Positions 18,212-21,581 of a stretch of DNA of 21,581 nt are shown in pieces. Below the pieces are notes generated by a model, which saw only the letters and a program-made list of their open reading frames with translations, had not been told where the DNA came from and did not search any database. This stretch comes from a virus. Position 1 is the first letter of the stretch. Each line of letters opens with the position of its first letter. The stretch spans positions 1 to 21,581 of the IMG/VR virus record IMGVR_UViG_3300030101_001383; one strand, given 5' to 3'. The position numbers were made by a program, and so were the translations under genes.

Positions 18212-18439
18212 ATGGAAAAAGCAAATAAATTAGAATTATTAGAACACCTTCATACAGTTCTTATACAAGAATTGTTAGACAAGGTAAAAAGTGGAGATGC
18301 AAAACCTGGTGATCTGAACGTAGCAAGACAACTTCTCAAGGATAATGGTATTGAATGTATTCCAACAGAGAAGAGTCCGATGGAAGATCTTATGTCAAAC
18401 CTTCCAGACCTTGATGTGATACCCGCTTTAGAAAGATAG
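18212..18439 (+). CDS. Terminase small subunit (T7 gp18-like)
   Basis: The 75-aa protein is close in size to T7 gp18 (89 aa) and begins MEKANKLELLEHLHTVLIQE; T7 gp18 also begins MEK with a LEMLDTAM-type helix. It continues KVKSGDAKPGDLNVARQLLK and ends in an acidic tail (PMEDLMSNLPDLDVIPALER). It would bind DNA ends and regulate the large terminase during packaging. The order, shortly before the large terminase, supports this. One extra gene, the methyltransferase, lies between the two terminase subunits. Confidence 0.85.
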   Translation: MEKANKLELLEHLHTVLIQELLDKVKSGDAKPGDLNVARQLLKDNGIECIPTEKSPMEDLMSNLPDLDVIPALER

Positions 18440-18442
18440 CCT

Positions 18443-19339
18443 ATGAAACTTTTAGATACCTTTGCAGGTATCGGTGGCTTTTCCTACGCTGCTGAAAAAC
18501 TTGTAGGTGGTTTTGAAACAACTCAGTTTATAGAAATCAACCCTTACTGCCAAAAAGTTCTTAACAAACACTGGTCACACGTTCCTATCCATGACGACAT
18601 CACAACATTCACAGCTAAATCTGGAGAGTTTGACATCATTACTGGAGGATTCCCCTGCCAAGATATATCAGTTGCAGGTTTACAGAAAGGCATCACAAAA
18701 GAAACCAGATCAGGTTTGTTTTACGAACTCATCAGAATCATACGCATGGTACGACCCAGATACGTTGTCTTGGAGAACGTGGCAGCAATCCTTAATAGAG
18801 GGTTGGACATCGTTCTCAGGGAATTTTACGAAGCAGGGTATGATGCAGAATGGGCAGTTATATCAGCAAGTTCTTTGGGAGCCTGTCATCAGAGAAGCAG
18901 ATGGTGGCTCGTTGCCTACCCCAACAACAATGGATCATCTTCCTCAGAGAAGTGTGGATTCAATGGTGAAACAAGTGACAGAACACAGGAAGGGCAGAAC
19001 CAATCTTGCCAATCTCAGAGAAGCAGTAAATCCAGAAACAGTACAACTATTCAACAAATTACAGAGCTTACCTATCCCAACAGCAAGAGACTACAAGGAC
19101 TCAGGGGAGAATATGAACTACAAGAAAGCAGCAGAGAAAGGACGTTTACCTGGCGTAACAGTGGAATCACGCTCAACCCAAACTGGAAAGGATACAAATC
19201 TAAACCCACACTTTGTCGAGGAGATGATGGGCTATCCAATCGGGTGGACAGACTTAAAGCATTAGGTAACTCTGTTGTACCACAGGTAGCTGCTATCCCT
19301 TTACAACGAGTAAAAGATCTTTATGCAACCGCTTCCTGA
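18443..19339 (+). CDS. DNA (cytosine-5) methyltransferase
   Basis: The 298-aa product has the ordered motifs of C5 methyltransferases. Motif I is FAGIGG (7-12), which binds S-adenosylmethionine; motif IV is GGFPCQD (68-74) with catalytic Cys72; motif VI is ENV (111-113); motif VIII is QRSRWW (150-155); motif X is GNSVVPQV (275-282). The target-recognition region (about 156-265) is polar and Ser/Asn/Gln-rich, with YPN repeats typical of phage versions. No restriction enzyme is next to it, so it is an orphan, probably protecting phage DNA from host cleavage. It starts 3 nt after small terminase and overlaps the large terminase start by 17 bp. A second reading frame inside it is unusually protein-like. 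Confidence 0.93.
   Translation: MKLLDTFAGIGGFSYAAEKLVGGFETTQFIEINPYCQKVLNKHWSHVPIHDDITTFTAKSGEFDIITGGFPCQDISVAGLQKGITKETRSGLFYELIRIIRMVRPRYVVLENVAAILNRGLDIVLREFYEAGYDAEWAVISASSLGACHQRSRWWLVAYPNNNGSSSSEKCGFNGETSDRTQEGQNQSCQSQRSSKSRNSTTIQQITELTYPNSKRLQGLRGEYELQESSRERTFTWRNSGITLNPNWKGYKSKPTLCRGDDGLSNRVDRLKALGNSVVPQVAAIPLQRVKDLYATAS
18591..19265 (+). CDS. Nested +1-frame ORF in the methyltransferase (224 aa, possible dual coding)
   Basis: This frame is open for 224 codons entirely inside the methyltransferase gene. The translation is not random-looking. It contains SLLEDSPAKIYQLQV, then YDPDTLSWRTWQQSLIEGW and SFSGNFTKQGMMQNGQLYQ, two (L)P-(T/I)-PT-D blocks (SLPTPTTMD, LPIPTARDYKDSG), and a C-terminal LNPHFVEEMMGYPIGWTDLK. 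I recall a broad set of phage and bacterial hypothetical proteins with W-R-T-(S/W)-Q, GM-(R/Q)NG, LPTPTA-D and FVEWMMGFPIGWT-L patterns near cytosine methyltransferases. Each block lies over a conserved methyltransferase motif, so part of the conservation could be inherited from that frame. No ribosome binding site is evident at 18591. Expression is unproven. Confidence 0.45.
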   Translation: MTTSQHSQLNLESLTSLLEDSPAKIYQLQVYRKASQKKPDQVCFTNSSESYAWYDPDTLSWRTWQQSLIEGWTSFSGNFTKQGMMQNGQLYQQVLWEPVIREADGGSLPTPTTMDHLPQRSVDSMVKQVTEHRKGRTNLANLREAVNPETVQLFNKLQSLPIPTARDYKDSGENMNYKKAAEKGRLPGVTVESRSTQTGKDTNLNPHFVEEMMGYPIGWTDLKH

Positions 19340-21044
19340 GAAACTACAAGACTTTAGATACTTTCTAATCATAACGTGGCGGCATTTAAACCTACCAGAC
19401 CCCACACCAGTTCAATTAGACATAGCTGAGTATTTACAGTATGGACCTCGTAGAAAGATCATACAGGCCTTTAGAGGCGTAGGTAAGAGTTGGATAACTT
19501 CTACCTATGTTGTGTGGAAACTACGGATGAATCCACAGCTAAAGTTTCTTGTTGTCTCTGCAAGTAAAGATAGAGCAGATAACTTCAGTACTTTCACCAT
19601 GCGTCTTATAAACGAGATGCCAATATTAGCTCCACTACGTCCAGAAGACGCTCAAAGAAACTCTAAAATTAGTTTTGATGTTGGCCCTGCTCAAGCTGAT
19701 CATGCCCCTTCTGTTAAGTCTCAGGGTGTCTTAGGACAGATGGCTGGTAGTAGAGCAGATGAAGTGATTGCTGATGATGTGGAAGTACCAAATAATAGCT
19801 TTACTCAACCGATGAGAGACAAGTTAAGTGAAGCTGTTAAAGAATTTGATGCCATACTGAAACCTAACGGTAAAATTACCTTCCTAGGTACTCCACAAAC
19901 AGAACAATCTTTATATCTAACACTAGAAGAGCGTGGATATACAACACGCATATGGACTGCACGTTATCCAGAACTTAAAAACAATTACGGAGATAGACTT
20001 GCTCCTAAGTTAGCTCAGAGGCTATCAGAAGAGCTTGTAAAGCCTAAAGATCCTGTTGACCCTGATAGGTTTTCATCAATAGATCTCATGGAACGTGAAG
20101 CGTCCTATGGACGTTCTGGGTTCTCTCTACAGTTCATGTTAGATACCTCTCTATCAGACCAGGATAGATACCCTCTCAAACTATCAGATCTCATCATCAG
20201 TAGTGTTAACCCTGATCATGCACCAGAAAAGGTGATATGGTCATCATCACCTGAATACGTCATCAAAGAATTACCCTGTGTAGGCTTTAATGGAGACCAC
20301 TTCTACAGACCTGCACAGCAATTCGGTGATTGGATTGAATATACAGGTTCTGTTATGTTCATTGACCCCTCTGGTAAAGGTAGAGATGCCACAGGATACG
20401 CTGTAGTCAAAATGTTAAACGGTAATCTATATGTCCCAGACGCTGGTGGTCTTAACGGTGGTTACAGTGACGCTGTATTAACAACATTATCTAAAATAGC
20501 TAAGACAAATAAAGTAAACACAATCCTTGTTGAGTCAAACATGGGTGGTGGTATGTTTGCAGAACTGTTAAAACCCTTTCTTCTTCGCTATCACCCCTGT
20601 GAAGTACAAGACGTACGTAATACAAAGACTAAAGAATTACGCATAATAGATACCCTTGAACCTGTTATGAACTCTCACAGGCTTATATTTGACCGTAAGG
20701 TAGTAGAAAAAGACTATAGATCCAACCCTAACGAAGCACCAGAAAGAAAATTAAAACTTCAACTCTTCTATCAGATGTCTCGCATAACTAAACATAGAGG
20801 TTCTTTAGTACACGATGATATTTTAGACGCTCTATCAGGGGCAGTTGCCTACTGGACTGAGTACATGAACCAGGATGAAGACAGAAACATTAAATCTCGT
20901 AAAGATGAACTCCTAAGAGTTCACTTAGATAACTGGGGGTCCTACCTAAACAACACCGTCACTCAAACTGCACTGGGTATGTCCCCCACTCAGATAAGTA
21001 ATTCTAATGGTTCCTCTGATGGATTCATTAATAATTCTTATTAG
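19323..21044 (+). CDS. Terminase large subunit (T7 gp19-like)
   Basis: The 573-aa product matches T7 gp19 (586 aa), the ATPase and nuclease motor that packages DNA and cuts the concatemer. Walker A is at 48-57 (QAFRGVGKSW), compared with T7 IQAFRGIAKS. Walker B is VIADDVE (148-154) and the coupling motif is TFLGTPQT (186-193). The RNase-H-like nuclease domain shows MFIDPSGKGRDATG (345-358) with Asp348, LVESNMGGG (402-410) with Glu404, and HDDILDAL (497-504) with Asp499 or Asp502 as metal ligands. All key acids are present. It overlaps the methyltransferase by 17 bp. It is the last gene before the gene-free end region. Confidence 0.96.
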   Translation: MQPLPEKLQDFRYFLIITWRHLNLPDPTPVQLDIAEYLQYGPRRKIIQAFRGVGKSWITSTYVVWKLRMNPQLKFLVVSASKDRADNFSTFTMRLINEMPILAPLRPEDAQRNSKISFDVGPAQADHAPSVKSQGVLGQMAGSRADEVIADDVEVPNNSFTQPMRDKLSEAVKEFDAILKPNGKITFLGTPQTEQSLYLTLEERGYTTRIWTARYPELKNNYGDRLAPKLAQRLSEELVKPKDPVDPDRFSSIDLMEREASYGRSGFSLQFMLDTSLSDQDRYPLKLSDLIISSVNPDHAPEKVIWSSSPEYVIKELPCVGFNGDHFYRPAQQFGDWIEYTGSVMFIDPSGKGRDATGYAVVKMLNGNLYVPDAGGLNGGYSDAVLTTLSKIAKTNKVNTILVESNMGGGMFAELLKPFLLRYHPCEVQDVRNTKTKELRIIDTLEPVMNSHRLIFDRKVVEKDYRSNPNEAPERKLKLQLFYQMSRITKHRGSLVHDDILDALSGAVAYWTEYMNQDEDRNIKSRKDELLRVHLDNWGSYLNNTVTQTALGMSPTQISNSNGSSDGFINNSY

Positions 21045-21074: not shown

Positions 21075-21094
21075 GGGGGGGATTATAGGGGGGG
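21075..21094 (+). repeat. Two G7 tracts 13 bp apart, possible G-quadruplex
   Basis: Bases 21075-21081 and 21088-21094 are each seven G, separated by ATTATA. Each tract can supply two GGG runs, giving an arrangement GGG-G-GGG-ATTATA-GGG-G-GGG that could fold as an intramolecular quadruplex. They begin 30 nt after the terminase stop in an AT-rich genome. Confidence 0.7.
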
Positions 21095-21168: not shown

Positions 21169-21206
21169 CTAGACTGACAACCCACAGCATCATATAAAAT
21201 AATTAA

Positions 21207-21254
21207 TATAAGATCCCTATAAGACAATTCTGGGCAGTCTATAGGGATCTTATA
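21207..21254. repeat. Long inverted repeat (18 bp stem, one bulge)
   Basis: Left arm 21207-21225 (TATAAGATCCCTATAAGAC) pairs with right arm 21237-21254 (GTCTATAGGGATCTTATA), with a single bulged A and an 11-nt loop (AATTCTGGGCA). The + strand has no T-run after it; the minus strand is followed by T-rich TTAATTATTTTATA. It could be a terminator, mostly for leftward transcripts, or a cruciform used at the packaging or concatemer junction. Confidence 0.7.
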
Positions 21255-21364
21255 GATACTCTTATAGTTATCTTATAGTCAACTATTAGATAACTATTAG
21301 ATGTCTATTAGTTAACTACTAAATACCTATTAGTTAGCTATTAGGTACTAATAGGTACTGATAG
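21249..21364. repeat. Helically phased heptamer array (CTTATAG / CTATTAG)
   Basis: Heptamers start at 21249, 21261, 21272 (CTTATAG), then 21283, 21294, 21305 (CTATTAG), 21316 (CTACTAA), 21327, 21338 (CTATTAG), 21348 (CTAATAG) and 21358 (CTGATAG). Spacing is 12, then seven times 11, then 10 and 10 bp. Spacing of one DNA turn puts all copies on one face of the helix. T7 also has arrays of a 7-mer near its terminal repeats, so a packaging or end-processing role is possible. Confidence 0.75.
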
Positions 21365-21380
21365 ATTGGCTAAAAGGTTT

Positions 21381-21409
21381 TTGACAAAAAAATTTGAAGG
21401 GTTTACATA
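21381..21409 (+). promoter_or_regulatory. Possible host sigma70 promoter pointing right
   Basis: A perfect TTGACA (21381-21386) is followed after 17 bp by TACATA (21404-21409), within an A-rich spacer. The -10 is weak. A palindrome ACATAT-N6-ATATGT (21405-21422) overlaps the -10 and could be an operator. If the window continues across the genome junction, this would suit an early-gene promoter. Confidence 0.4.
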
Positions 21410-21499
21410 TATACGCATATGTCGTTTTTACCCCTATACATAGACTTTTTTCTGTAGATTTTGTAGTTAGTCTTTGTAAATAGTTGATATAATTGACTT

Positions 21500-21524
21500 C
21501 TTACTGGACTTATAATCCAGTTAG
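21500..21524. repeat. Hairpin resembling a tRNA anticodon arm
   Basis: ACTGGA (21503-21508) pairs with TCCAGT (21516-21521) around a 7-nt loop CTTATAA. Two more pairs lie beyond a T-T mismatch. A 5-bp stem with a C-T-N3-A-A loop looks like an anticodon arm, but no matching D or T arms are seen, so no tRNA is called. It could be a short tRNA-derived attachment remnant or just a hairpin. Confidence 0.35.
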
Positions 21525-21581
21525 TAGGGATTAAGGGTCTAATTGTTACAAAGTGTTAAGATTTTCTTATTTCATTTTATC

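Follow-up and report, generated by a model that had tools for sequence, protein, structure and literature searches.

An SRR-type short-repeat array beside the inferred terminal repeat of a T7-like marine phage

Gene setting of the right genome end

The window analysed here is the whole stretch of 21,581 nt of IMG/VR record IMGVR_UViG_3300030101_001383 (positions 1–21,581). It covers the right-hand half of the genome of a T7-like phage and encodes tail proteins, internal virion proteins, the small terminase subunit TerS, a C5 methyltransferase, and the large terminase subunit TerL. The T7 gp18-type terS (18212–18439, plus strand) was recognised by PF11123 (E 3e-18) and phrog_891, and the T7 gp19-type terL (19323–21044, plus strand), the final gene 5' of the array described below, by PHROG 38 and Pfam PF22530. 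The nearest TerL of a cultured phage is that of Prochlorococcus phage P-SCSP2 (78%). Among eight IMG/VR relatives, a T7-like RNA polymerase was found in seven (G001–G004, G006, G007, and G018), and the search for a family-A DNA polymerase detected it in none of the eight. MPP-C cyanopodoviruses are likewise reported to lack a family-A DNA polymerase (PMC9860041). The phage is a T7-like (Autographiviridae) marine phage, and its host is probably a picocyanobacterium, as suggested by P-SCSP2 being the closest cultured TerL source and by the polymerase gene pattern resembling that of MPP-C cyanopodoviruses.

The gap between terS and terL (18440–19322 in the window) is a variable cassette: some relatives share the C5 methyltransferase found there in the window, and others have different content or just 3 bases. 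The cassette varies independently of the array. Directly 3' of terL lies a G-tract element, GGGGGGG-ATTATA-GGGGGGG (21075–21094, plus strand), which is present in nearly all relatives, occurs as G7-ATAAA-G7 in some, and reads ACACTATAGGAGA in P-SCSP2. This element occupies the position of the T7 promoter phiOR, a likeness of position alone, and may be a promoter or a G-rich structure. Scans with promoter and terminator consensus sequences revealed nothing exceeding chance, and a scan against Rfam gave no match. Further downstream, the inverted repeat that the original prediction placed before the array is real, with arms at 21207–21225 and 21237–21254 and a TCTGGG loop conserved in relatives. 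The first array unit overlaps the right arm of this hairpin, and the same arm contains CTATAGG 11 bp 5' of that unit.

The heptamer array in the window and its relatives

The array (21249–21376, plus strand) is composed of CYWWWAG heptamers 10–12 bp apart, with a mean spacing of about 10.9 bp. All eleven heptamers originally proposed, with spacings of about 11 bp, were recovered at their positions (starts at 21249, 21261, 21272, 21283, 21294, 21305, 21316, 21327, 21338, 21348, and 21358) and lie far above chance, and a twelfth, CTAAAAG at 21370, extends the chain. Ten of the twelve units fit the CYWWWAG class exactly, while CTGATAG at 21358 deviates by one base and CTACTAA at 21316 by two. The longest chain of CTNNWAR motifs at 10–12 bp steps in the window has 12 members; the maximum in first-order Markov sequences was 3, both in 2000 sequences for the last 981 bp and in 60 for the whole window. 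Self-match of the 21249–21364 stretch was 0.60 at lag 11, 0.56 at lag 22, and 0.53 at lag 33, against a Markov background at lag 11 of 0.38 +/- 0.03 with a maximum of 0.55 in 20,000 sequences. Every one of the 20 most periodic 116-bp stretches in the whole window overlaps the array.

The conservation of this pattern was analysed in 80 loci with a close TerL, using the stretch from the hairpin loop to the following conserved box and assuming no motif. Of the 34 distinct regions that bear an array and were long enough to test, 28 had their best lag at 11 and the others at 12 or 10, and the mean match in array-bearing relatives was 0.52 at lag 11 versus 0.22–0.33 at lags 5–10 and 12–15. Unit fitting in 38 distinct regions (about 40 relatives) yielded 284 units, 5–14 per array, with the consensus C-[T/C]-W-W-W-A-G followed by W-T-A-N and with spacings of 10, 11, 12, and 13 bp in 55, 153, 33, and 3 cases, respectively. 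The comparison with related phages that had been proposed as a check thus shows the 11-bp spacing to be kept in about 40 relatives, although their sequences have drifted. Many of the relatives' contigs continue through TTTTATC/GATG into a second, left array and then the first gene. This left array, located beyond the terminal repeat, was identified in 29 of the 35 array-bearing relatives that were parsed, where it comprises 2–5 CTAATAG-type units spaced 11 bp apart; it is known from relatives only, as the window stops short of its position. A palindrome, AGTACTAG...CTAGTACT, is found at the left junction (in L039, some 500 bases 3' of terL, and in L061 and L063); it encloses the CTAATAG units in relatives with arrays and almost nothing in those without.

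Shuffling the order of the units lowers the similarity between neighbours, in the linker (0.494 observed v 0.401 shuffled) as well as in the core (0.748 v 0.700), with 0 of 1000 shuffles reaching the observed values. This likeness of adjacent units fits local duplication and lends support to the suggestion that the array grew in this way. Linker identity drops with unit distance from 0.49 to about 0.3, and core identity holds at 0.63–0.75, a figure inflated by the selection of units by their core. A functionless, neutral satellite could also have arisen if an 11-bp unit spread in tandem from the hairpin arm, as the copy number range of 0 to 14 and the likeness of adjacent units would suggest. 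We consider this improbable, since the heptamer consensus stays constant across phages while the linkers drift (with the same inflation of the core figure), the arrays tend to occur or be missing on both sides together, and the same location is used in T7, T3, HTVC011P, and CRP-125.

The near-palindromic appearance of the units raises the question of whether the array acts as a folded element, in which hairpins formed in a DNA strand or a crossing transcript would serve hairpin-primed concatemer processing or termination. The 21205–21378 region indeed folds far better than its shuffled versions (z -7.1 as DNA and -7.9 as RNA), a true hairpin sits immediately 5' of the array, and a hairpin end has been proposed for T7 concatemer processing (Chung et al. 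1990, as cited in PMC4925675). However, the left array of T7 does not fold (z +2.1), array-less relatives keep the true hairpin alone, and the commonest units lack palindromic symmetry, CTTATAG having T at both position 3 and position 5: these positions are T/T in 162 units and A/A in 50, versus A/T in 35 and T/A in 21. The folded element is accordingly judged an unlikely explanation. The bases at positions 3 and 5 likewise do not support a palindromic site for a dimeric protein.

The putative terminal repeat border and the comparison with T7

Right after the array, a box at about 21388–21405 (plus strand), AAAAATTTGAAGGGTTTA, aligns with the sequence immediately 5' of the right terminal repeat in T7, T3, phiYeO3-12, and gh-1 (box AAAAATCTGAATGGGTA, ending at the border; ATAAAAATCTGAGTGACTA in T7 and ACAAAAATCTGAATGGGTA in T3), as well as with P-SCSP2 and CRP-171. 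When the T3 box is compared with the whole T7 genome, the T7 box matches best (14/17). The window contains one match to the border box at up to 3 mismatches, with 0.6 expected by chance; the argument therefore draws on where the box lies and on its alignment across many relatives, and not on this single match. This match to T7-type boxes places the putative left edge of a terminal repeat at 21405/21406. The right edge, TTTT/ATC or TTTTATC/ (the contig end), is suggested by the comparison of ...CCCT/ATCTGTT in T7 and T3 with ...TTTT/ATCGATG in the window and relatives, and by four assemblies (the window, L023, L077, and L006), each of which stops or is broken no more than 5 bases away from it, the break in L006 being an internal one of its stored contig. 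The right terminal repeat would therefore extend on the plus strand from 21406 to 21578–21581, about 173–176 bp. Inferred repeats of relatives fall into length classes near 172 and 237 bp; those of T7 and T3 have 160 and 231 bp. The array would thus adjoin the terminal repeat, in line with the genome-end location originally proposed for it.

Within the inferred repeat there is a small hairpin, TTACTGGACTTATAATCCAGTTAG (21501–21524), which shows paired changes in L063 (CTAGA/TCTAG); L061 has another hairpin in its stead. A tRNA scan prompted by this hairpin found none.

The short-repeat regions SRL and SRR of T7 were reportedly named and first described by Dunn and Studier in 1983, and to our knowledge no function has been established for them. 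We re-read these arrays in V01146. In the left array, 12 sites at 175–332, mostly 13 bp apart, differ from CCTAAAG by at most one base, and the lag-13 signal is strong (p 0.0003); the right array has about 11 looser sites at about 39607–39759, mostly 11–15 bp apart with gaps, and a weaker signal at lag 12 (p 0.008). As in the window family, about a dozen imperfect C[C/T]WWWAG heptamers are regularly spaced on both sides of the terminal repeat, and the right array follows the last genes and precedes the right terminal repeat, with the border box in common. The order in T7 is gene 19, phiOR, SRR, border box, terminal repeat, ATCTGTT, and SRL. A concatemer of the window family would read, in a matching order, terL, G-tract element, hairpin, first array, border box, terminal repeat and, from relatives, ATCGATG, left array (CTAATAG, 11 bp), and first gene. 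Because arrays flank the terminal repeat in the same layout, the array of the window is very probably a short-repeat array of the SRR/SRL type in a new lineage. The two systems differ in the consensus and spacing (CCTAAAG at 13 bp in T7, CTTATAG/CTATTAG at 11 bp in the window), in the hairpin immediately 5' of the window array, and in the short left array of the relatives (2–5 units). The likeness is one of place, motif class, and regularity of spacing, and the differing unit motif and spacing leave common descent of the arrays themselves undemonstrated.

Similar arrays were found in some other phages. The right ends of T3 and phiYeO3-12 carry CCTAAAG-type heptamers at 12–13 bp immediately 5' of the border box, as in the window, but with fewer, interrupted units; post-terL heptamers are enriched in T3 (16 vs 1.8 expected), and the T3 array alone has no significant lag. 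Pelagiphage HTVC011P and roseophages CRP-125 and CRP-171 have fewer CTATTAG/CTTTAAG-type heptamers, 10–14 bp apart, directly 3' of terL. Post-terL heptamers are enriched in these three phages and ProddE, and marginally in HTVC119P, but not in HTVC019P, HTVC025P, HTVC031P, HTVC120P, HTVC200P, RHEph01, LUZ100, BB8, P-SCSP2, and Syn5, so the feature is widespread but patchy. The genome ends of P-SSP7, which were mapped experimentally (PMC3350473), show neither a comparable array nor the border box.

The spacing comparison bears on the original view that the heptamers are phased along one face of DNA. With 10–12 bp in the window and 13 bp in T7, T3, and phiYeO3-12, such phasing does not hold as a general principle; at 10.5 bp per turn, the drift over the window array amounts to about half a turn, which together with the 13-bp spacing in T7 makes the argument weak. 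Of the first interpretation, the genome-end location, the fit to a packaging role, and growth by duplication are retained.

Array-less relatives and the possible role of the arrays

Both arrays are missing from a sister lineage (22 TerL rows), which retains the hairpin, the box, the boundaries, and the TTTTATCG edge. In all 16 of its parsed loci, the right array and the left pair are missing, and just 44–46 bases separate the hairpin loop from the box. The TerS proteins of this lineage are 83–87% identical to that of the window. The retention of the hairpin, the box, and a nearly identical TerS without both arrays indicates that the array is probably auxiliary, and it suggests that TerS (gp18), whose binding to the array had been put forward for testing, would not strictly need it. 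On the TerL tree, whose root is not fixed, array presence and absence require two state changes; the co-occurrence of left and right arrays rests on only one or two evolutionary events.

Two candidate partners of the array were rejected. Covariation of TerS with array presence was not supported, as no column of the TerS alignment, judged by eye, splits array-bearing from array-less phages. The cytosine methyltransferase beside terL is present and absent in both groups. The structure prediction for TerS is of low confidence (pLDDT 59).

Regular iterons near a genome end might instead be an origin-like set bound by a replication initiator. The presence of promoter phiOR in the corresponding region of T7 and the absence of a detected family-A DNA polymerase in the relatives (0/8), as in MPP-C cyanopodoviruses (PMC9860041), speak for this possibility. 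Nevertheless, T7, with a DNA polymerase of its own, likewise has arrays to the left and right of its terminal repeat, the sister lineage has no arrays, and no initiator gene linked to the arrays was found, which makes an iteron set rather improbable.

The best overall explanation, to which we assign a probability of roughly 0.6, is that the locus represents the SRR-type array of a T7-like phage serving the maturation/terminase complex as a DNA platform. The T7-like RNA polymerase in seven of eight relatives speaks for it, and the array-less sister lineage with its similar TerS, like the T7-like phages in which post-terL heptamers are not enriched, speaks against it. The arrays in the same place in T7 and T3 and the genome-end position fit the packaging or maturation part of the original prediction. 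The mechanism itself, a multi-site platform proposed by analogy, is given slightly less than an even chance. The repeats on both sides of the terminal repeat would be regularly spaced contact sites for a concatemer-maturing complex, consisting of a T7-like RNA polymerase halted at the junction together with TerS and TerL, and these contacts would help to hold or wrap DNA beside the cut sites. Since the sister lineage lives without arrays, they would improve efficiency or accuracy without being essential. The analogy draws on T3/T7, in which gp18 and gp19 are engaged by the RNA polymerase–lysozyme complex when it pauses at the concatemer junction (PMC3276506), with the class II terminator ATCTGTT located at this junction (PMC11617373), and on SPP1, in which TerS sites flank the cut site and DNA wrapping by TerS has been proposed (PMC4856287). 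SPP1 pac (pacL-pacC-pacR) and lambda cosB similarly place a cut site beside several TerS contact sites, but they serve pac/cos packaging with different TerS proteins and offer an analogy only. It is a more speculative and rather doubtful extension that T7-like phages share the heptamer arrays flanking the terminal repeat as a platform for recognition or DNA wrapping, with the spacing tuned by lineage (10–13 bp) and both arrays missing together in the marine sister lineage.

A known but unexplained feature of T7 gains a new example in marine phages far from T7. The array lengths of 0 to 14 units and the spacings of 10 to 13 bp provide a comparative set for probing repeat function, and the shared border box and arrays offer a sequence rule for locating genome ends in metagenomic T7-like phages. 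If the platform reading is true, the SRL and SRR repeats of T7 would gain a role in concatemer maturation.
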